44,387 bases of DNA. It comes from a virus. Under the pieces are notes generated by a model. It was given only the letters and a program-made list of their open reading frames with translations, did no database searches and had not been told where the DNA came from. Below are positions 12,806 to 28,770 of the stretch, one piece after another. The DNA is taken from positions 1 to 44,387 of the IMG/VR virus record IMGVR_UViG_3300007735_000869; one strand, 5' to 3'. Within the stretch, counting starts at the first letter, position 1. Each line of letters opens with the position of its first letter. A program made the position numbers and the translations under genes.

Positions 12806-14119
12806 ATGCAAGATATTATAAAATTAGTAGAAGAGTACATAAACAATAAACACTCTCAAAAAAAATGGGAAGCAGGTAAAGATTGGGTACAATACGCAGG
12901 TCCATATTTTAGTAGTGAAGAATATATAGCAGCTGTTAAAACTTTATTGGGAGAGTGGCTCGTATTAGGAGCAGAAGCAATTAAGTTTGAAAAAACATTT
13001 CCAGAGAAATTTGGTAAAAGATTTGGGTTATTAACAAATAGTGGATCAAGCGCCAACCTTCTTATGATGCTGGCGATGACATCTAAAAGAGGTAGAAATT
13101 TACCAAAAGGTACAAAAGTCATAACTCCTATTGCTGGATTTCCAACAACTATTAATCCTATTTTTCAAGTAGGATTTACTCCAATTTTTGTAGACATAGA
13201 ATTAGAAACTCTTAATTTAGATTTAGATCATGTAGAAAGAGTTTGTATAGAAAATCCTGATGCTAAGATAATAACATTTGCGCATGTTTTAGGAAATCCT
13301 CCAAACATGAATAAACTCATGAATATAGTAGAGAAATATAATTTAATTCTCTTAGAAGATTGTTGTGATGCTTTAGGATCTTTATATGATGGTAAAAAAT
13401 TAGGGTCTTTTGGAGAATTAGCTAGTTGTTCATTTTATCCAGCACACCATATTACTATGGGCGAAGGAGGATTTGTAGCAGCTAAAGATCAAAATACAGA
13501 AAGAATAATTAGAAGTTTTAGAGAATGGGGTAGAGGTTGCTATTGCGTAGGTAAACAAAACTTATTAGCAAACGGATCTTGTGATTGTAGATTTAATAAT
13601 TGGTTGCCTTCTCTTCCTGAAGATTTATTTGATCACAAATATGTTTACGAAGAAATTGGATATAATTTAAAACCGATTGAATTACAAGCTTCTATAGGGT
13701 TAGTGCAAATGAAAAAAATGAAAGAAATAGGAGAAAAGCGTAGAGAGAATTATTCTAATCTTTTTAAAGCATTCTCTAAATATGAGCAATATTTCCATTT
13801 ACATAAAGCACAAGAATTGTCGGATCCAGATTGGTTTGCGTTTCCAATTACTTTGAGAGATGATGCTCCATTTAAAAGATCAGACATATGTCAATTTTTA
13901 GAATCTAACAAAATTCAAACAAGACCATATTTTGCAGGAAATATAATGCTTCAACCAGCCTACGCAGGAATGATGGACCCAAAAGAAGTTATTGAAAAAT
14001 TCCCTATTGCCCGTAAAGTAACAACTGATACATTCTTTTTAGGAACAAGTCCAGTAATAAACAAAGAAAAAATAGATTACATAGAATCAATTCTAGATAA
14101 GTTTATATTGACATTATGA
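12806..14119 (+). CDS. RfbH-type PLP-dependent 3-dehydratase (DegT family), 437 aa
   Basis: DegT/DnrJ/EryC1 aminotransferase fold in which the Schiff-base lysine is replaced by histidine: SFYPAHHITMGEGG, His214. This is the mark of 3-dehydratases such as RfbH/E1 and ColD, which remove the C3 hydroxyl of 4-keto-6-deoxyhexoses. A C-Y-C (245/247) and C-D-C (259/261) pair sits where E1 enzymes bind their [2Fe-2S] cluster, favouring the RfbH branch. The length matches that family. RfbH normally works with a flavin/Fe-S reductase on CDP-sugars; neither that reductase nor a CDP-sugar pathway is visible nearby, so the substrate may be the GDP-sugar from gmd. The product would be a 3,6-dideoxy sugar. 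Confidence 0.88.
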   Translation: MQDIIKLVEEYINNKHSQKKWEAGKDWVQYAGPYFSSEEYIAAVKTLLGEWLVLGAEAIKFEKTFPEKFGKRFGLLTNSGSSANLLMMLAMTSKRGRNLPKGTKVITPIAGFPTTINPIFQVGFTPIFVDIELETLNLDLDHVERVCIENPDAKIITFAHVLGNPPNMNKLMNIVEKYNLILLEDCCDALGSLYDGKKLGSFGELASCSFYPAHHITMGEGGFVAAKDQNTERIIRSFREWGRGCYCVGKQNLLANGSCDCRFNNWLPSLPEDLFDHKYVYEEIGYNLKPIELQASIGLVQMKKMKEIGEKRRENYSNLFKAFSKYEQYFHLHKAQELSDPDWFAFPITLRDDAPFKRSDICQFLESNKIQTRPYFAGNIMLQPAYAGMMDPKEVIEKFPIARKVTTDTFFLGTSPVINKEKIDYIESILDKFILTL

Positions 14120-15104: not shown

Positions 15105-16463
15105 ATGATTAAACTTATAATATTCGATTTAGACGGAGTGCTAGTCGAAGCAAAACATATACACTACGAAGCTCTAAATAAAGCTTTAGGTAGTAAATAC
15201 TCTATTGATTGGAACGAGCATCTATCAGTGTATGATGGTTTAAAAACAAACCAAAAACTACAAATGTTGACTGAGAAAAAAGGTTTGCCGCAAAATATTC
15301 ATGGAGAAGTTTGGAAGAATAAGCAAAAATACACATTAGAAGCGTTATCGAATCTTAAACCATCAATTCAATTACAAGTGTGTTTAAAAACCTTAGTAGA
15401 TCAGGGTTATAAAATTGCTTGTTGTAGTAATAGCATAAGAAAAACGATATTAACAGTTTTAAGTAAGTTGAACATAATAGAATATTTTGACTTGATTCTC
15501 TCTAATGAAGATGTAAAAAATAGTAAGCCTCATCCTGAAATATATTGGAAAGCCATTTCAACCATGGGATATTTGCCAGAAGAAGCTCTAATAGTCGAAG
15601 ATTCTCCTTACGGTTTATTAGCTGCTAGTCGAAGTAAAGCTAATATTATGAGAGTGGGTTCTCCTAAAGATATTACATATAATAACATATATAAACATTT
15701 AAATAAAGAAAAAATGAACAATACACCAAAATGGAAAGATGACAAACTGAATGTGTTGATTCCTATGGCTGGTGCTGGATCTAGATTTGAGCAAGCAGGT
15801 TACACATTTCCAAAACCTCTGATAGATGTTAAAAACAAACCTATGATTCAAGTAGTCGTAGAAAATCTAAATATAGATGCAAACTATATTTACATAGTAC
15901 AAAAAAAGCATAGAGAAAAATATAATTTAGACACGTTGTTAAATCTTATTACTCCAGGTTGTAATATAGTTGAAGTAGATGGATTGACTGAGGGTGCAGC
16001 ATGTACTGCGTTATTAGCTAAGCAATTCATAGATAATGATAATCCACTGTTTTTCGCAAATTCAGATCAATTTGTTGAATGGGATTCTAATGAGTTTATG
16101 TATAAGATGCAAGAAACAGATTCAGACGGAGGAATAGTATCTTTTAAAGCCACTCATCCTAAATGGTCGTTTGCAAAAGTAAATCAAGACGGTTTAGTAA
16201 CTGAAGTAGCAGAAAAAAATCCAATATCAGATATAGCAACTGTTGGATACTATTATTGGAAACATGGTTCTGATTTTGTAAAATATGCCGAACAGATGAT
16301 TGAAAAGAACATCAGAGTAAATAACGAGTTTTATGTGTGTCCTGTATTTAATGAAGCAATTCAAGACAACAAACAAATAAGAATTTTCGATATTAAAAAG
16401 ATGTGGGGATTAGGAACTCCAGAAGATTTAAATGATTTTTTAAAAAAATATAATAATGAATAA
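15105..16463 (+). CDS. HAD phosphatase - sugar nucleotidyltransferase fusion, 452 aa
   Basis: Domain 1 (about residues 1-200) is a HAD-superfamily phosphatase/phosphoglucomutase: FDLDGVLVE (Asp8, Asp10), a Ser/Asn segment CCSNS, KPHPEIYW and VEDSPYGLLAA. Domain 2 (about 215-450) is a GT-A nucleotidyltransferase: LIPMAGAGSRF (about 218-228), FPKPLIDV, a 'FFANSDQFV' metal-binding stretch, and TVGYYYW. Together they could prepare a sugar phosphate and activate it to a nucleotide sugar. No frameshift is needed; the linker is natural sequence. Substrate unknown. Confidence 0.85.
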   Translation: MIKLIIFDLDGVLVEAKHIHYEALNKALGSKYSIDWNEHLSVYDGLKTNQKLQMLTEKKGLPQNIHGEVWKNKQKYTLEALSNLKPSIQLQVCLKTLVDQGYKIACCSNSIRKTILTVLSKLNIIEYFDLILSNEDVKNSKPHPEIYWKAISTMGYLPEEALIVEDSPYGLLAASRSKANIMRVGSPKDITYNNIYKHLNKEKMNNTPKWKDDKLNVLIPMAGAGSRFEQAGYTFPKPLIDVKNKPMIQVVVENLNIDANYIYIVQKKHREKYNLDTLLNLITPGCNIVEVDGLTEGAACTALLAKQFIDNDNPLFFANSDQFVEWDSNEFMYKMQETDSDGGIVSFKATHPKWSFAKVNQDGLVTEVAEKNPISDIATVGYYYWKHGSDFVKYAEQMIEKNIRVNNEFYVCPVFNEAIQDNKQIRIFDIKKMWGLGTPEDLNDFLKKYNNE

Positions 16464-20759: not shown

Positions 20760-23700
20760 ATGGAATTTACATTCGGAATAATTACGAGTTATGGAACATC
20801 TGAATTTCTTCTCAGAATAATAGATCAAATAAAGGCTGAAGTTCCCAAAGATAAAAGAGAGATTATTGTAGTAGGAGGAAGCAATCCTAATATAGAAGAC
20901 GTTATACATCTAGACTTCAATGAAAACGAAAGAGCAATGTGGATAACAAGAAAAAAGAATTTAATTACGCACAACAGCACTAAAGAAAACATAGTATACT
21001 TACATGATTATATAGGTTTTACGCCAGGTTGGTACGAAGGGCAACTTAAAAAGGGTAATAATTTCGATGTGAGAATGGATAAAATTATAAATTATGATGG
21101 AACCAGATTCAGAGATTGGTCTATATGGCCTCACAATGGTAACGAGATGGATTCTATAATAGGAAGAGAATGTTTAATTCCATATAATATAGATCAATTA
21201 GTCAAATATATGTATATATCAGGAACTTACTGGATCGCAAAAAGACGAGTGATGTTAGAATTTCCATTAAATGAGAATTTATTGTGGGGTCAAGGAGAAG
21301 ACGTAGAGTGGTCAAAGCAAGTAAGAGAGAAATATAGTTTTCAGATGAACGAAAACTCTTCAGTAGATATATTAAAACCTGGTAAAGATCGAGCTTTTGA
21401 ATACGCAACAGAAGATACTATAAATAAAGCATTGGAATTTCTTAATGCTAATAATTCTCATAAAAGCAATAAAAGAAAATTCGTAATAATATCGACTGTT
21501 TATAACAAAGGTAAGTTTGTTGGATATAATGTAAATAGTCTAAAACAGCAAAGCTATAATAATTTTATTGCGGTATATGGATATGATAAATCGACAGATA
21601 ATAGTTTAGAATATTTAAAATCTTCAATAGGAGACGATGATAGATTTATTATTCATATTAATGATAATCCAGGATGCTACTTAAATTGTTATATGTCTAC
21701 ATATGAATTTTTAAAAGAAAATCATCTTATCAATCCAGAAGATGTTATAGTAGAAATAGATGGAGATGATTGGCTTTTACATTCATTCGTTTTACAGTAT
21801 ATAAATGACGTGTATGAATCCAATCCAGATATTTGGATGACTTACGGACAATATATAACGTTTCCAAATGGAGAATATGGAGGTCATTTTAATTTATCAT
21901 TAAATGATCAAGTTGATATACACAATCAATATAGAAACGCAGAATTTCCATATAGTCATTTAAAAACATATAAAGCATTTTTATTAGATAGTATTACAGA
22001 CGAAGATCTTACTGATCCTCAAACTGGAAAATATTTTAATGCTGCTGCCGACTTCGCATTATGTATGCCTTTAGTAGAGCAAGCAGGAAAAAATAGGATT
22101 TTTAGAGTAGATCAACCGATGTATGTTTACAATACCTCCACTGATTTAGAATCAGAAACAAATAACAGACTTTCTTTACAAAAAGAAGTAGAGATGAGAA
22201 TAAGGAAAAAATCTCCAAAAGCTAGATTGACTAGCAAACCATATTCTAATTATAATATTGTAAATGCTTTAGCTGGAGGATTAGGAAACATGATGTTTCA
22301 AATAGCCGCAGGATATTCTTTATCTAAAGAAGCGAATGGAAAATTTTTCTTATATCCAAACGAGATAGGTGGAATGATGCATAAACATCCAACTGAATAT
22401 TTAAATACAGTTTTTAGAAATTTAAAAATTCTAGATATTAATGAATCATTTAAACAAATAGAGCATAATTCATTTCATTACGAGCCCATTAATTTAAACA
22501 ATGAAAACTGCAGGAATTTATTTTTGGTTGGAGGATTTCAATCTTTTAAATATTTTGAAAAGCACTCTAAAGATATTAGATCTCTATTTTCTGCGCCTTT
22601 AGATTTGGTATCCAACTTAAAACTTAAATACGACGTAGATAATAAAGTATCAATACATGTCAGAAGGGGAGATTACATAAATTTGCCTAATCATCATCAT
22701 AATTTAGCTATATCATATTATAAAAATGCTATTAACTATTTTAAAGGTTTTAAATTTATTGTATTTAGCGATGATATTAATTGGTGTAAGAATAACTTCA
22801 TCGGAGATAATTTTACATTTGTAGAAAATACTACAGACGTAGAAGATTTATATTTAATGAGTATGTGTGAACATCATATAATAGCTAATTCTACATTTAG
22901 TTGGTGGGGAGCATGGTTAAACCAAAATGAAAACAAGAAAGTGGTATATCCAAATAAGTGGTTTGGACCAGTTTATAAAGATTTTAGAACCAGCGATTTA
23001 TTCCCAGAAGATTGGATTTGTTTAGAAGAAGATTTTCCTGAATTGCAAGTAAACTTATTCGATAATGCTTTTAGACATTTATCAAATGATAATGGCAGAT
23101 ATTCTTCTGTACACGGTAAAATATCAAATAAGATTGAATTTGTTAGAGATCTTTATCAATATGATGGAATAACTATTTTTACTGACGACTATTTAAATAC
23201 TGATATCGTAAAACAAATTGAGAGCGAAAAGAAAATAGGTTGGTTATTAGAACCAAGACAGATACAACCATTAAGATATGATCAATTCGAAAATTATAAA
23301 GATAATTTTGATTATATAATAACACATGATGAAAAACTCCTAACACAATATCCAGAAAAAACCAAATTTGGAATTGTAGGAGGAACTTGGATAAAAACTA
23401 AAAACTACGGATTACATAATAAGACTAAGAACATATCAATAATATATTCTAATAAAACAGATTTAGAAGGACATAGATTGAGACATGAAGTTGCAAGAAA
23501 TATCAACGCATTGGATCTATATGGAAGAGGCACTTCTAATCCTATTGAAAACAAAGAAGATTCTCTATTAGATTACAGATATTCAATAGTAATAGAAAAT
23601 AGTAAAGCGAAAGGTTATTTTACAGAAAAGCTAATTGATAGTTTAATAACTGGCACAATTCCAATTTATTGGGGTTGTATAAATATACAAGATTTCTTTG

Positions 23701-23876
23701 ATACGAGAGGAATGTATATAGTAAATAATTTAGAAGACATTAAAAATATTATTGGTAATTTAGGAGAAAGAGATTATTTTAGTAAAATGGAATACGTTAA
23801 GAATAATTTTGAGTTAGCTAAAAAGTACGTGATAACCGAAGATTGGATGTACGAAAATATTTTTAATATAAAATAA
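20760..23876 (+). CDS. Four-domain glycosyltransferase: GT2 - GT2 - GT11 - GT10, 1038 aa
   Basis: Domain 1 (about 1-230): GT-A fold starting FTFGIITSYGTSEFL. Domain 2 (about 240-480): GT2, KFVIISTVYNKGKFVG with the metal motif VEIDGDDWLL. Domain 3 (about 498-765): GT11 alpha-1,2-fucosyltransferase, with NALAGGLGNMMFQIAAG, IHVRRGDYINLP (about 631-642) and NSTFSWWGAWL (about 708-718). Domain 4 (about 770-1038): GT10 alpha-1,3-fucosyltransferase, with YSIVIENSKAKGYFTEKL and TGTIPIYWG (about 940-970). GDP-L-fucose from Gmd and Fcl would feed domains 3 and 4. One polypeptide could therefore extend a chain and add two fucoses. No membrane anchor is visible. Confidence 0.88.
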   Translation: MEFTFGIITSYGTSEFLLRIIDQIKAEVPKDKREIIVVGGSNPNIEDVIHLDFNENERAMWITRKKNLITHNSTKENIVYLHDYIGFTPGWYEGQLKKGNNFDVRMDKIINYDGTRFRDWSIWPHNGNEMDSIIGRECLIPYNIDQLVKYMYISGTYWIAKRRVMLEFPLNENLLWGQGEDVEWSKQVREKYSFQMNENSSVDILKPGKDRAFEYATEDTINKALEFLNANNSHKSNKRKFVIISTVYNKGKFVGYNVNSLKQQSYNNFIAVYGYDKSTDNSLEYLKSSIGDDDRFIIHINDNPGCYLNCYMSTYEFLKENHLINPEDVIVEIDGDDWLLHSFVLQYINDVYESNPDIWMTYGQYITFPNGEYGGHFNLSLNDQVDIHNQYRNAEFPYSHLKTYKAFLLDSITDEDLTDPQTGKYFNAAADFALCMPLVEQAGKNRIFRVDQPMYVYNTSTDLESETNNRLSLQKEVEMRIRKKSPKARLTSKPYSNYNIVNALAGGLGNMMFQIAAGYSLSKEANGKFFLYPNEIGGMMHKHPTEYLNTVFRNLKILDINESFKQIEHNSFHYEPINLNNENCRNLFLVGGFQSFKYFEKHSKDIRSLFSAPLDLVSNLKLKYDVDNKVSIHVRRGDYINLPNHHHNLAISYYKNAINYFKGFKFIVFSDDINWCKNNFIGDNFTFVENTTDVEDLYLMSMCEHHIIANSTFSWWGAWLNQNENKKVVYPNKWFGPVYKDFRTSDLFPEDWICLEEDFPELQVNLFDNAFRHLSNDNGRYSSVHGKISNKIEFVRDLYQYDGITIFTDDYLNTDIVKQIESEKKIGWLLEPRQIQPLRYDQFENYKDNFDYIITHDEKLLTQYPEKTKFGIVGGTWIKTKNYGLHNKTKNISIIYSNKTDLEGHRLRHEVARNINALDLYGRGTSNPIENKEDSLLDYRYSIVIENSKAKGYFTEKLIDSLITGTIPIYWGCINIQDFFDTRGMYIVNNLEDIKNIIGNLGERDYFSKMEYVKNNFELAKKYVITEDWMYENIFNIK

Positions 23877-23881
23877 AAAAA

Positions 23882-24838
23882 GTGAAAAAAATAGTGTATA
23901 TAACAGGGTGTTTAGGTTTTATAGGATCATATATTACAAGAGCGTGCTTAAAAAAAGGATGGTATGTTAAAGGAGTTGATAAGATGACATACGCTGCGAA
24001 TAAAGACATTTTAAATGAATTTAAAAAATATGATAATTTCTCTTTTGTTCACTGCGATATTAATGATTTAAAATTTTTATATGATTGCGACTATATCATC
24101 AATACGGCTGCAGAAACGCATGTTGGAAATAGCATAGCAAGTAGTGTAGAATTTGTGAGATCAAATATAGATGGAGTTCATAACTTATTAGAACTTATAA
24201 AAAATCATAGAGGAGAAAATTCTACAAAACCAGTATTGATACATTTTAGTACAGACGAGGTTTATGGAGATATAGAAATTGGAGCTCATACTGAATTAGA
24301 CTTATTAAAACCGAGTAATCCTTATTCTGCAACAAAAGCAGCAGCAGATATGCTCGTAATAGCTTGGGGAAGAACTCATAAAGTTCCATATATGATTGTT
24401 AGACCGACTAATAATTATGGAATAGGTCAATACGTAGAGAAGTTAATTCCTAAAGCAGTTAAATGCCTTAACTTGGGTAGAAAAATACCGCTTCACAATA
24501 ATGGAGAACCTTATAGAAATTGGTTGCATGCAGCAGATACGGCTGAAGCTATAATAACTTTACTAGAGCGCGGAACTATCGGAGAAATTTATAATATAGC
24601 AGGAGGATTTGAACAAAAAAATATAGATACTATAAAACAAGTTATACAGTATTATAAAAATCAGCAATTAGAATCTTATATAGATTTTATAGATTTTTCA
24701 TGTAGTAGACCTGGACAAGACGTTAGATATGCATTGGATGATTCGAAACTTAGAAATTTAGGATGGTCACCTAAAATCAATTTTTCTAAAGAAATAAAAA
24801 ATATTGTAAATTATTATAAAACAAAATTTATTTGGTAA
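23882..24838 (+). CDS. NAD-dependent sugar 4,6-dehydratase/epimerase, RmlB-like, 318 aa
   Basis: Rossmann motif TGCLGFIGSYITRACL, NTAAETHVGNSI, FSTDEVYGD and YSATKAAADM (active-site Y-x3-K) are those of dTDP-glucose 4,6-dehydratases, as is RPTNNYGIGQ. At 318 aa it is a little short. The start is GTG at 23882, five bases after the previous stop; it gives the expected MKKIVYITG start, and no better ATG is present. It could make a 4-keto-6-deoxy sugar that the RfbH-type enzyme or the TPP enzyme uses. Confidence 0.85.
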   Translation: MKKIVYITGCLGFIGSYITRACLKKGWYVKGVDKMTYAANKDILNEFKKYDNFSFVHCDINDLKFLYDCDYIINTAAETHVGNSIASSVEFVRSNIDGVHNLLELIKNHRGENSTKPVLIHFSTDEVYGDIEIGAHTELDLLKPSNPYSATKAAADMLVIAWGRTHKVPYMIVRPTNNYGIGQYVEKLIPKAVKCLNLGRKIPLHNNGEPYRNWLHAADTAEAIITLLERGTIGEIYNIAGGFEQKNIDTIKQVIQYYKNQQLESYIDFIDFSCSRPGQDVRYALDDSKLRNLGWSPKINFSKEIKNIVNYYKTKFIW

Positions 24839-25533
24839 TGGGTTTATTTAGAATACAACACAATAAATTTGAAGAGTCATTTGATATGACTCAATTTGAT
24901 ACAGCCCATCCTAACGAGTGGGAAGGAACAGACAGATTGCAAGAAGAGGCTTGGCAACAGAGATATGAATATGAAGCGTGTCTTATTTGTGATGTTATAA
25001 AAGAAAATCCTCACATAAAAAATGTATTAGAATTAGGTAGTGGACCAGGAATACTGTCCCAAAAAGTGCAATTAGAATATCCTGATTTGAACTATCACTT
25101 AGTTGATAAACCTTTTGCAAAAAAATATTTTGATGATAATAATTTTAAAGGAACTTTCTTTGTGAAAGATCTATCTTGTAGTTTCGATACTGAGGGTTTG
25201 TTAAGAGAATATGATTTAGTTATTACGAATGATTTTATAGAGCATGTGTTTAATCCTCATATAATAATAAAAACTGTATACGAATTAACTAATAAAAATT
25301 CAAGATTCTTTATAAGCAATCCAAATTGGAGAATGGCTCATCAGTATGTATATAGAGGACTTTTTGATTTTGATAATTTTATCTATCTGTTATATACTCA
25401 TATGTTTGAATTAGAAGGATTTTATGGTTCTCAATTAAAGACGCCTAATTATCCTAGAATAAGTAGCGAAACTTTATTGCCAGACGATAATTTAACTGAT
25501 TGGAATCATTATATGATTTTTAAACATAGATAG
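24838..25533 (+). CDS. SAM-dependent methyltransferase, 231 aa
   Basis: The start ATG shares its A with the previous stop (TAATG). Motif I is VLELGSGPGILSQKV, then the nucleotide-binding acidic strand (HLVDKPF) and DLVITNDFIEHVFNPHIII. The N-terminal helix FEESFDMTQFDTAHPNEWEG has the WE motif typical of small-molecule methyltransferases. This third methyltransferase of the cluster probably methylates a sugar. Confidence 0.82.
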   Translation: MGLFRIQHNKFEESFDMTQFDTAHPNEWEGTDRLQEEAWQQRYEYEACLICDVIKENPHIKNVLELGSGPGILSQKVQLEYPDLNYHLVDKPFAKKYFDDNNFKGTFFVKDLSCSFDTEGLLREYDLVITNDFIEHVFNPHIIIKTVYELTNKNSRFFISNPNWRMAHQYVYRGLFDFDNFIYLLYTHMFELEGFYGSQLKTPNYPRISSETLLPDDNLTDWNHYMIFKHR

Positions 25534-25552
25534 TACAATAAAATAACTTATT

Positions 25553-26182
25553 ATGATAAATAAAAATGATCTAATTTCTTTCGAAGACGAAATCGGAAAT
25601 CTATTTAATGAAGGCAAAATAAGAGCGCCTATCCATTTATATTCAGGTAATGAAGATCACATGATAGAGATATTCAAAGAAATAGATATTGAAAACGATT
25701 GGGTTTGTTGCACTTGGAGAAATCATTATCAAGGATTATTAAAAGGAATATCTAAGAGTATTTTAAAAAATAAAATAGTAAATGGAAAGTCGATGGTAAT
25801 GAACTTACCAGAATTTAAATTTATATGCAGCTCAATAGTAGGAGGAATTCCATCGATAGCCACAGGAATAGCGCTTGCTATAAAATTACAAAATAAATCT
25901 AATAGGGTGTGGTGTTGGGTTGGAGATATGAGTGCAGAAACCGGCGCTTTCCACGAAGCTTATAAGTACAGTTTAAATCATAATCTTCCTATAACGTTTA
26001 TAGTGGAAGACAACAAAAAATCCGTGTGCACTCCGACTCCTGACGTATGGAAAAGAGATACTCCATACTATTTAAATTCTGAATATAGAGGAGGAGTATT
26101 AAAACAACAAAACTTATACTATTATCAATACGAAAATAAAAAATTTCCTCATGCTGGTGCAGGAGTGAGAGTTCAATTTTAA
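25553..26182 (+). CDS. Thiamine-diphosphate enzyme, alpha (E1-alpha/transketolase-N-like) subunit, 209 aa
   Basis: The chain begins with a helical segment, then GGIPSIATGIALAIK, and carries the thiamine-diphosphate motif GDMSAETGAFHEAYKYSLNH...VEDN (about residues 124-157), the G-D-x...N pattern of pyruvate-dehydrogenase E1-alpha and transketolase. It is much shorter than ordinary E1-alpha (about 330 residues) but keeps the cofactor core. The adjacent gene is the matching beta-type subunit. In antibiotic sugar pathways such split E1-like pairs attach a two-carbon branch to a keto-deoxysugar; that is a plausible role here. Confidence 0.82.
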   Translation: MINKNDLISFEDEIGNLFNEGKIRAPIHLYSGNEDHMIEIFKEIDIENDWVCCTWRNHYQGLLKGISKSILKNKIVNGKSMVMNLPEFKFICSSIVGGIPSIATGIALAIKLQNKSNRVWCWVGDMSAETGAFHEAYKYSLNHNLPITFIVEDNKKSVCTPTPDVWKRDTPYYLNSEYRGGVLKQQNLYYYQYENKKFPHAGAGVRVQF

Positions 26183-26184
26183 TT

Positions 26185-26721
26185 ATGAAATATTTCGAAG
26201 AATTAAAAAAAGCAATGAGTTTATTGGCGGAGCATCCCAAAACTATGTTCATAGGTCAAGCTGTAGAATATGAAGGGACAGGGTTATATGATTCTCTAAA
26301 ACATTTACCATCAGAAAAAAAAATAGAGTTGCCTGTTGCAGAATATTTACAAACAGGAATGGCTAACGGAATGGCAATAGAGGGAATGATACCAGTATCC
26401 ACCTATCCAAGATGGAATTTTTTATTAATGGGAGTTGATCAAATAGTGAATCACATGGATAAGTTTATAACAATGTCTGAAGGTCAATGCTCTCCGAAAA
26501 TAATTATAAGAGTGTCTGTAGGAAGCGAACATCCTGTGGATCCCCAATGTCAACATAAAGGTAATTTCTCTAACGCATTTAGAGAGATGCTTCAAAATAC
26601 AGAGGTCGTAGAATTACACGAACCAGAAGACATTATTCCGTCTTATCAAAAAGCGATTAATAGAACTGATGGAATTAATACAATATTGGTAGAATTCGCC
26701 GATTATATAAAAATTAAATAA
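26185..26721 (+). CDS. Thiamine-diphosphate enzyme, beta (E1-beta/transketolase pyrimidine-domain-like) subunit, 178 aa
   Basis: The protein matches the pyrimidine-binding domain of E1-beta: GQAVEYEGTGLYDS, ELPVAEYLQTGMANGMAIEG (the Glu likely activates the cofactor), IPVSTYPRWNFLLMGVDQIVNH and IIIRVSVG. It stops where the transketolase C-terminal domain would begin, so the pair is a minimal heteromer. It starts two bases after the alpha subunit, and its stop touches the next SDR gene's start (TAATG). Active without the C-terminal domain or not is unknown. Confidence 0.82.
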   Translation: MKYFEELKKAMSLLAEHPKTMFIGQAVEYEGTGLYDSLKHLPSEKKIELPVAEYLQTGMANGMAIEGMIPVSTYPRWNFLLMGVDQIVNHMDKFITMSEGQCSPKIIIRVSVGSEHPVDPQCQHKGNFSNAFREMLQNTEVVELHEPEDIIPSYQKAINRTDGINTILVEFADYIKIK

Positions 26722-27497
26722 TGAAAGTATTGATTACTGGAGGTAATGGGTATATTGCTACTAGTTTATATAATTCATTAAAAAATAAATATCAAGTAGA
26801 ATGTATAACAAGAAAGGATTTTGATTTGACTAACTTAAATCAAGTAAATAAATTTTTTGAGAATAAGTATTTTGATATTATTATACACACAGCAGCAAAA
26901 GGAGGAAACCGATTAAAAGTAGAAGATTCTTCTATAATGGATGATAATCTCATGATGTATTATAATCTATTAGCAAATAAATTTCAATTCGGTAAGTTTA
27001 TTCATTTTGGCTCTGGAGCTGAATTATTCTCAATCAATACGCCATATGGTCTCAGTAAAAAAGTTATAGCTAATCCAATATCAGAAAAGGATAACTTTTA
27101 TAATCTAAGAATATATGCAGTATTTGATGAGAATGAATTGGATACTAGATTTATAAAAGCTAATATAAAAAGATATATAAACAAACAACCAATAGAAATA
27201 TATCAAGATAAACACATGAGTTTTTTCTATATGAAAGATCTTATAAAAGTCGTACATTACTATATAGAAAATAACTATTTACAAAAAGAAGTTGACTGCT
27301 CTTACAATTACACATACACTCTAAGCGAGATAGCCGATATTATAAATTCACTATCTGATTATAGAGTAGAAATTATAAAACAAAATCCTGATATTGCTAG
27401 AGGATATTATGGTAATAATTTAGACGATTATAATATAGATTATTTAGGATTAGAATATGGAATAAAAGAAGTTTATAATAAATTGAAAAATGCGTAA
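26721..27497 (+). CDS. NAD-dependent epimerase/reductase (extended SDR), 258 aa
   Basis: KVLITGGNGYIATSLYNSL is the nucleotide-binding motif, IIIHTAAKGG follows, and TPYGLSKKVI gives the Y-x3-K. The enzyme is short for its family and is closest in style to sugar reductases or epimerases. Directly after the split TPP enzyme, it may reduce the keto group of the product made there. Confidence 0.78.
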   Translation: MKVLITGGNGYIATSLYNSLKNKYQVECITRKDFDLTNLNQVNKFFENKYFDIIIHTAAKGGNRLKVEDSSIMDDNLMMYYNLLANKFQFGKFIHFGSGAELFSINTPYGLSKKVIANPISEKDNFYNLRIYAVFDENELDTRFIKANIKRYINKQPIEIYQDKHMSFFYMKDLIKVVHYYIENNYLQKEVDCSYNYTYTLSEIADIINSLSDYRVEIIKQNPDIARGYYGNNLDDYNIDYLGLEYGIKEVYNKLKNA

Positions 27498-28770
27498 AGA
27501 AAAAATAACATTCGCAACTAACGTAGGCCCAAATACATTAGATCATACTAAAATACTTTTAAAATCGTTAAAAGAAAATTTGAATGATAAAGAACATGAG
27601 ATTCTAATTTTTATAGATAACGATAATGACGGGACTGTTGAATACTTAAAAAGTATAAAATCTGAATTTTATGATTTGAAGATAGTTACACACAAAGTCA
27701 AGCCAATAATAGGATATTCTAGAAATTCTAATTTGATAGTTAATCTAGCTAAACACAATATAGTGAGTTATCTTCAAACAGATATGGTCATTTCAAAAAA
27801 TTATGATATAGAAATTCTAAAAGAATTAGAAGATAATTGTATATTAAGTTCAACAAGAGTGGAACCCCCTTTACACGGAGCGTCTGATAAAACTTTCACT
27901 ATGGATTTCGGAATAACACCAGAATCTTTTAAGTATGAAGAATTTCTAAATTTCTCAGAAAGTATAAAATCGAATAAAACTATAGATTATTTCTTTGCTC
28001 CATATACTTTTCATAAATCTACTTGGCAGAAATTAGGAGGATATAATACGCTATTCAGAAGATCGAGAGAAGATTCAGATTTCGTTCAAAGATGTTTACA
28101 CGCTGGAGTAAAATTAAAACAAACATACGCGGCGAATGTATATCATTTCACGTGTGTATCGTCGAGAGGTAAAGACTGGTTCGATCAATCAAATCAGAAA
28201 GCTCAAGATCGAGTTAAATTACAAAATATAGCAGACGAAATAGAGTTAAGAAGGTTTATTAAAAGATGGGGAAATTTTAATCATGGTGAAAATATAATAA
28301 AAAAATATGATTGCGATTTAGTAATTAAGGGAGATAAAGATCAAATAAATATAGCGTATCAATTAGAACCATTTTTCACAAGAGTTTTCGTGCAATCAGA
28401 AGAGTGTAGAAATAAACTCATTGAAGCGCATTCGAATCAGCATCAACCTGCTAATTCTCTTTTAAATTTTACGGAGCAAGATTGGATAGAATCAAACAAA
28501 TATTATAATCAAATAGACTATTCTCAGATTTATTTTGTAGGAGAACCAGAAGATTTTAATGCAAAAATAACATTAGATTTGGATAGTGAGGAATATAATA
28601 TGCTAACTCAAGAAACATTATTAAATCTTTCTCACTTAATTCAACAAACAGAACTTGGAGATTATGAATCAGGAAATTGTATCATCTCTATAAAAGAAGC
28701 TAAAGATATTACACCTCCATTCAAAGTAGAAAATCCCCCTTTCGATATGAGTTTATTAACCATAGAATAA
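27490..28770 (+). CDS. GT2-like glycosyltransferase, 426 aa
   Basis: The N-terminal strand KITFATNVGPNTLDHTKILL, HEILIFIDNDNDGTVEYLKS and a YLQTDMVISKNYD metal-motif region form a GT-A fold of GT2 type. GGYNTLFRRSREDSDFVQRCL is the typical 'E-D..f..R' catalytic/acceptor segment. The C-terminal part (about 260-426) is not recognised and may bind the acceptor. It is the last gene of the glycan cluster and overlaps the previous gene by eight bases. Confidence 0.82.
   Translation: MRKEKITFATNVGPNTLDHTKILLKSLKENLNDKEHEILIFIDNDNDGTVEYLKSIKSEFYDLKIVTHKVKPIIGYSRNSNLIVNLAKHNIVSYLQTDMVISKNYDIEILKELEDNCILSSTRVEPPLHGASDKTFTMDFGITPESFKYEEFLNFSESIKSNKTIDYFFAPYTFHKSTWQKLGGYNTLFRRSREDSDFVQRCLHAGVKLKQTYAANVYHFTCVSSRGKDWFDQSNQKAQDRVKLQNIADEIELRRFIKRWGNFNHGENIIKKYDCDLVIKGDKDQINIAYQLEPFFTRVFVQSEECRNKLIEAHSNQHQPANSLLNFTEQDWIESNKYYNQIDYSQIYFVGEPEDFNAKITLDLDSEEYNMLTQETLLNLSHLIQQTELGDYESGNCIISIKEAKDITPPFKVENPPFDMSLLTIE

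Follow-up and report, generated by a model that had tools for sequence, protein, structure and literature searches.

The question raised by this locus is what two short, adjoining genes with the look of pyruvate dehydrogenase E1 subunits are doing among the sugar genes of a virus. The stretch of DNA analysed (hereafter the window) is the whole 44,387-base virus record IMGVR_UViG_3300007735_000869, positions 1 to 44,387. An earlier, sequence-only reading had likened the two genes to truncated E1-alpha and E1-beta and proposed that they branch a keto-deoxysugar. The genes that bear on this proposal are the following.

12806-14119, + strand: RfbH-type PMP/[2Fe-2S] sugar 3-dehydratase (437 aa; NF011936, 467 bits, cut-off 423)
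15105-16463, + strand: HAD phosphatase-nucleotidyltransferase fusion, candidate for sugar activation (HAD and RmlA-like domains; phrog_3980, 2.7e-77)
23882-24838, + strand: NDP-hexose 4,6-dehydratase, RmlB-like, with TDEVYG motif (TIGR01181, 301.7 bits, cut-off 365.1)
24832-25533, + strand: methyltransferase, possible tailoring step (Methyltransf_23, 3.5e-11)
25553-26182, + strand: alpha, minimal E1-alpha-like subunit, ThDP PP domain (209 aa; E1_dh)
26185-26721, + strand: beta, minimal E1-beta-like subunit, PYR domain only (178 aa; Transket_pyr)
26721-27497, + strand: SDR, proposed branch-ketone reductase (258 aa; Epimerase, 2.5e-17)
27490-28770, + strand: glycosyltransferase family 2, candidate for sugar transfer (Glycos_transf_2, 2.6e-7)

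The alpha and beta ORFs are intact and contiguous on the + strand with a gap of 2 nt, and the beta stop overlaps the SDR start (TAATG), leaving alpha, beta and SDR head to tail. The methyltransferase gene sits between the 4,6-dehydratase gene and alpha, a position it also takes in L005 and L051, and a GT2 gene stands behind the SDR in several related loci, as it does here. The 3-dehydratase gene lies upstream, its end 11.4 kb from alpha; other + strand genes upstream of the pair include glycosyltransferases, GMD-like and GDP-fucose-synthase-like genes, and methyltransferases. The 3-dehydratase, 4,6-dehydratase and SDR that the sequence-only reading had placed near the pair were thus all found. 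Elsewhere in the window, 20760-23876 encodes one 1038-aa chain joining GT2, GT11 and GT10 glycosyltransferase domains, and the product of 2092-2679 has an apparent signal peptide ending in VSAQ and resembles a Bacteroidota outer-membrane protein, which might hint at the host.

A minimal E1 pair

In the HMM check that the earlier reading had proposed, both subunits scored above cut-off, alpha against Pfam E1_dh (PF00676; 1.2e-16, 61 bits, cut-off 22) and beta against Transket_pyr (PF02779; 7.3e-8, 32.7 bits, cut-off 27). A profile built from 16 alphas matched human PDH E1-alpha at 7e-18. The best curated names for the pair are PDH E1 subunits, with scores far below the equivalog cut-offs (TIGR03182, 81.1 bits against 393.85). 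AlphaFold2 single-chain models reached a pLDDT of 92.4 (alpha) and 92.3 (beta). The alpha model aligned to E1-alpha chains over 197-203 residues (Z 19.6 and 19.4, rmsd 2.5), its next structural match being a split transketolase (Z 14.6), and the alignment to human E1-alpha, available as ranges only, extends to human residue 268, reaching the catalytic loop, whose His may have its counterpart in alpha H200. For beta, the model matched E1-beta with a TM of 0.85.

Residues H28, R56, H58, D125, N154 and H200 of alpha are invariant or nearly so, and E53 and H124 of beta are invariant. In alignments with human E1, alpha H28, H58 and the GD...N motif, together with E53 and H124 of beta, occupy conserved E1 positions, whose catalytic roles are established for the E1 family; the full ThDP/Mg motif of alpha reads GD(M)...EDN, with GDM where GDG is usual. 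Judging from these residues and the models, the PP domain of alpha and the PYR domain of beta would form a ThDP site between them. The likeness to truncated E1 subunits is thereby confirmed in Pfam matches, short lengths, folds and catalytic residues alike.

The window pair lacks the C-terminal domain of E1-beta and the C-terminus of E1-alpha; in full-length bacterial E1 loci, alpha measures about 312-370 aa and beta 317-349 aa. Transketolase_C (PF02780) was absent from 24 related contigs, and E2 acyltransferase (PF00198) from all 34 related phage contigs, many of them fragments, control genomes being positive in both searches. Within alpha, Pfam reported no match to Transketolase_N up to E = 1. 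Because E2 is absent from the 34 contigs, we place the pair apart from pyruvate dehydrogenase proper, in a distinct minimal-E1 family.

Genes that accompany the pair

Neighbourhoods were counted in loci holding alpha (84 alpha genes; 64 E1 loci in the dereplicated set). Beta follows alpha immediately in 82 of the 84, and because this order recurs and the catalytic residues are invariant, the pair is not a chance find. The SDR gene comes directly after beta in 60/84, a 4,6-dehydratase-like gene is the next one upstream of alpha in 47/84, and an RfbH/DegT-family gene lies near alpha in 73/84. Among the 77 E1 loci having a 4,6-dehydratase gene, 75 carry the TDEVYG motif in it. A 3-dehydratase of the His type (RfbH or ColD type) was found within 8 kb in 51 of the 64 dereplicated E1 loci; none was seen within that distance in the other 13.

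The RfbH-like proteins have His214/215 in place of the PLP lysine, as well as Cys187/245/247/259, invariant in 171 sequences. A second DegT-family class of ~380 aa also has a His (SFYASH) for the PLP lysine and is without the Fe-S cysteines, like ColD; its members stand near the E1 pair in RfbH's stead at L012:4999, L013:5913, L021:9940 and L034:5903. Replacement of Lys by His and the Fe-S cysteines are the defining features of such 3-dehydratases, ColD being without the cysteines (PMC8987622). None of 34 related contigs held a dedicated RfbH reductase of the E3 type (PF00175); a precedent for reliance on general host reductases is SpnQ, which works with ferredoxin or flavodoxin systems of that general kind (PMC8987622).

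Right behind the SDR, L067:9966-10538 and the equal place in L065, L068 and L082 hold a phosphoribosyltransferase-like gene, for which the best name is xanthine phosphoribosyltransferase.

Relatives of the pair

When viral contigs were queried with the window alpha, the best 80 of 100 related stretches, at 61-83% identity, were kept; by alignment query, the minimal-E1 family comprises at least 570 confirmed viral-contig stretches. The cultured relatives S-SM2 and P-TIM68 have a fused form (phrog_34187). The pair also occurs in a 735-kb uncultured phage genome and in roughly ten contigs assigned to cellular bins, part of them perhaps phage-derived. In a tree with one outgroup row on a very long branch, minimal alphas from phages and cellular MAGs cluster apart from full-length E1 with a support of 89/95, which is not decisive; among the minimal alphas, the window-type clade (100/99) and the fused cyanophage clade (100/97) are resolved.

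In 61 of 68 loci with a fused cyanophage relative, the gene next upstream encodes a Zn-alcohol dehydrogenase, a linkage which suggests that the keto-sugar acceptor is there made by oxidation, or that the enzyme has another role. This arrangement, with the fused alpha-beta gene nearly always right behind the dehydrogenase gene, is seen in L002:10963-13185, L003:10970-13194 and L326-L390, and sugar-kinase-like, nucleotidyltransferase and phosphoheptose-isomerase genes lie 3' of the fused gene in the same loci. Minimal E1 genes stand beside radical SAM/SPASM genes in L004:10388-12606, L091, L092 and L094, a set which covers the 735-kb phage genome and archaeal and Desulfobacterales MAG contigs. 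L004 also has a 350-aa ORF, radical SAM-like in appearance, between beta and alpha.

A ThDP slot in RfbH cassettes

A separate set of loci was picked by RfbH, blind to any ThDP gene, and freed of near-duplicates (n=36). A ThDP enzyme was present in 28 of them: 15 had a YerE-like enzyme, 6 a TK-like pair, 4 an E1 pair, and 3 an E1 pair and a YerE-like enzyme together. The YerE-like type is a ~590-aa TPP_enzyme_N/M/C protein (acetolactate-synthase/YerE type), and the TK-like type is a minimal split pair of about 209 + 159 aa, Transketolase_N-like and Transket_pyr, without a C-terminal domain. All three recur at a position shortly after the 4,6-dehydratase and before the SDR (18/24 occurrences for YerE-like, 4/6 for TK-like, 6/10 for E1). 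The gene order is RfbH, 4,6-dehydratase, TK pair and SDR in L209, L214 and L230; 4,6-dehydratase, E1 pair and SDR, with RfbH upstream, in L213 and L229; and RfbH, 4,6-dehydratase, three genes, YerE-like and SDR in L200 and L207. L046 holds an E1 pair and a TK pair in one locus.

For a control, loci were selected by GDP-mannose dehydratase (GMD), an Fcl-selected set of only 8 loci being too small. Here a ThDP enzyme was present in 6 of the 15 loci that had a 3-dehydratase and in 2 of the 60 that had none (Fisher p = 5e-4, indicative only, as loci of one collection are not fully independent). The ThDP enzymes of this control were never of the E1 type, and it therefore speaks to the slot, not to E1 itself. 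Because YerE-like enzymes and the E1 pair share a slot by RfbH, the 4,6-dehydratase and the SDR, we consider the pair a probable sugar C-branching carboligase, and this analogy is the strongest evidence for such a role. Whether, beyond that, aquatic phages share a standard dideoxysugar cassette whose ThDP slot is exchangeable, with three lineages swapped in to attach different carbon branches to a single keto-sugar and thereby diversify the glycans that phages make, is in our judgement an even call.

Minimal split transketolase-like pairs were seen in the E1 slot at L209:12255-13356 and in L214, L217, L230, L236 and L046, and YerE-like enzymes in phage RfbH cassettes at L195:13727-15478, L200:13808-15610, L216:12376-14133 and L221:12282-14043, the last of these split across two ORFs. 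The trio of small genes before the YerE-like gene at L200:12252-13847 (L207 and L010 have genes of similar size) consists of a DJ-1/PfpI family member and two ORFs without a Pfam match, cupin-like and HAD-like in appearance.

Proposed reaction and its alternatives

We propose, with a probability of about 0.65, that the pair adds a C2 unit, probably from pyruvate, to C4 of an NDP-3,6-dideoxy-4-keto-hexose, and that reduction follows. We infer the chemistry, the donor, the nucleotide, the branch position and the destination of the sugar as follows. The 4,6-dehydratase would give an NDP-4-keto-6-deoxyhexose, from which the RfbH-type 3-dehydratase, fed with host electrons, would remove O3 to yield the NDP-3,6-dideoxy-4-keto-hexose. 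The pair, as a minimal E1-lineage carboligase, heteromeric and ThDP-dependent, would decarboxylate a 2-keto acid, most likely pyruvate, to a two-carbon carbanion equivalent, which would join the C4 ketone to form a tertiary alcohol bearing an acetyl branch. The SDR would reduce this branch, giving a yersiniose-like octose, and glycosyltransferases would put the octose into a phage-made glycan, perhaps on the virion.

YerE transfers C2 from pyruvate onto the RfbH product, CDP-3,6-dideoxy-4-keto-glucose, and the E1-type alphaKADH2 pairs carry out a like reaction in antibiotic pathways, seemingly specialised for C2 branches (PMC12247030). Reduction of the branch ketone has been proposed in the case of yersiniose and demonstrated in that of paulomycose, in the latter by another reductase family (PMC4753412). 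The genomic linkage (51/64 loci, 28/36 for the slot) supports the earlier suggestion that an E1-like pair may branch a keto-deoxysugar. Several observations count against it: the 13/64 loci without a 3-dehydratase, the lack of an RfbH reductase, the RmlB-like 4,6-dehydratase, GDM for GDG, the co-occurrence of E1 and YerE-like enzymes in some loci, and the Zn-alcohol dehydrogenase with the fused cyanophage relatives.

The same keto-sugar might instead be given a glycolaldehyde (ketol) unit by a ketose phosphate, or a longer acyl group by another 2-keto acid, given that TK-like pairs occupy the equivalent slot and that the beta substrate pocket differs from that of PDH (PRWNF against MTFNF in the human enzyme). 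However, sequence and fold are E1-like and less so transketolase-like, and the known E1-type sugar enzymes give only C2 acetyl branches (PMC12247030), and we regard such a donor as unlikely. The acceptor could also be a keto-sugar or aldehyde other than the 3,6-dideoxy-4-keto-sugar, or the product a small acyloin that enters the glycan pathway at some other point. In agreement with this, clusters of other kinds (with radical SAM, Zn-alcohol dehydrogenase or kinase genes) hold the cellular minimal pairs and the fused cyanophage forms, but the strong 3-dehydratase linkage within the window's own clade makes it an unlikely explanation here.

Database names, together with a published reading that assigns viral genes of the pyruvate dehydrogenase and transketolase kinds to central carbon metabolism (PMC4053976), would make the pair an auxiliary metabolic E1 of pyruvate or acetoin dehydrogenase, or else a transketolase. 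This is the case that the sequence-only reading had set against its own proposal, and we hold it very improbable, the related phage contigs being without E2 or Transketolase_C: a central-metabolism dehydrogenase was rejected on the missing E2, the missing E1-beta C-terminal domain, the far-sub-cut-off equivalog scores and the glycan neighbourhood, and transketolase proper on domain type. A degenerate, inactive pair, which the short subunits and GDM for GDG might bring to mind, is scarcely credible when dozens of divergent pairs retain the subunit sizes and catalytic residues and both chains model with high confidence.

Phosphonopyruvate and sulfopyruvate decarboxylases are likewise minimal ThDP enzymes. 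They were rejected on Pfam type (alpha has only a weak TPP_enzyme_C match, 8.6e-4) and on the PP-before-PYR order in the fused relatives, a comparison drawn partly from general knowledge.

Comparison with known systems

Systems in which an E1-like pair or YerE acts on keto-deoxysugars are already known. The alphaKADH2 pairs (AviB1/AviB2, Pau11/Pau12, KbDH-alpha/beta, the aldgamycin enzyme) likewise consist of two E1-like subunits encoded next to keto-deoxysugar genes. Their C2 branch is proposed or shown, whereas that of the phage pair is predicted; they belong to actinobacterial antibiotic clusters, whereas the phage pair lies beside an RfbH-type 3-dehydratase; and where their sizes are stated they are full-length, as with the keto-sugar-branching Pau11/Pau12 at 325/345 aa (PMC4425429), against 209/178 aa for the phage subunits.

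The yersiniose pathway (YerE, Yersinia O-antigen) has in common with the phage locus a 4,6-dehydratase, an RfbH-type 3-dehydratase, a ThDP carboligase and a reductase, and YerE-like enzymes fill the equivalent slot of sister phage loci, the window itself having the E1 pair. It uses a single acetolactate-synthase-type flavoprotein where the phage has an E1-lineage pair, an E3 reductase where none was seen in the 34 related contigs, and a CDP-glucose 4,6-dehydratase where the window has an RmlB-like one. The latter looks dTDP-type (301.7 bits with TIGR01181 against 79.3 with the CDP model), and the route is therefore not literally that of CDP-yersiniose.

Pyruvate and branched-chain 2-oxo acid dehydrogenase E1 share the fold and ThDP-site residues with the phage pair, which is without their E1-beta C-terminal domain, E1-alpha C-terminal part and E2 partner. 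Members of phrog_34187 (S-SM2 gp198 and the P-TIM68 'transketolase central region') have homologous alpha and beta domains at 33-41% identity and also lie in glycan clusters, but as one fused chain of ~400 aa with a companion Zn-alcohol dehydrogenase, in contrast to the two genes of the window. Transketolases, split ones included, combine Transketolase_N-type PP and Transketolase_C domains, whereas the window alpha is of the E1_dh type and PF02780 is absent.

To the earlier reading, a phage with such chemistry was new; the locus is no single case, hundreds of viral contigs having relatives. No prior report of phage yersiniose or phage branched sugars was found in the literature searched, which leaves out most subscription journals, and we claim no priority. 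Nor did that literature describe the pair as two short genes, its occurrence in phages or the three-way ThDP exchange in one cassette.

Implications

If the proposal is true, phages make C-branched higher sugars, which have so far been reported from bacterial O-antigens and antibiotics. The pared-down E1 core would reveal the portions of the 2-oxo acid dehydrogenase scaffold that are dispensable for carboligation. Among carboligases of their lineages, the minimal pairs, E1 and transketolase alike, would rank with the smallest, and compact and diverse catalysts for tertiary alcohols would be on offer. Some viral genes read as pyruvate dehydrogenase or transketolase may instead be glycan branching enzymes, and would then be recast from hijacked central metabolism to the decoration of glycans.
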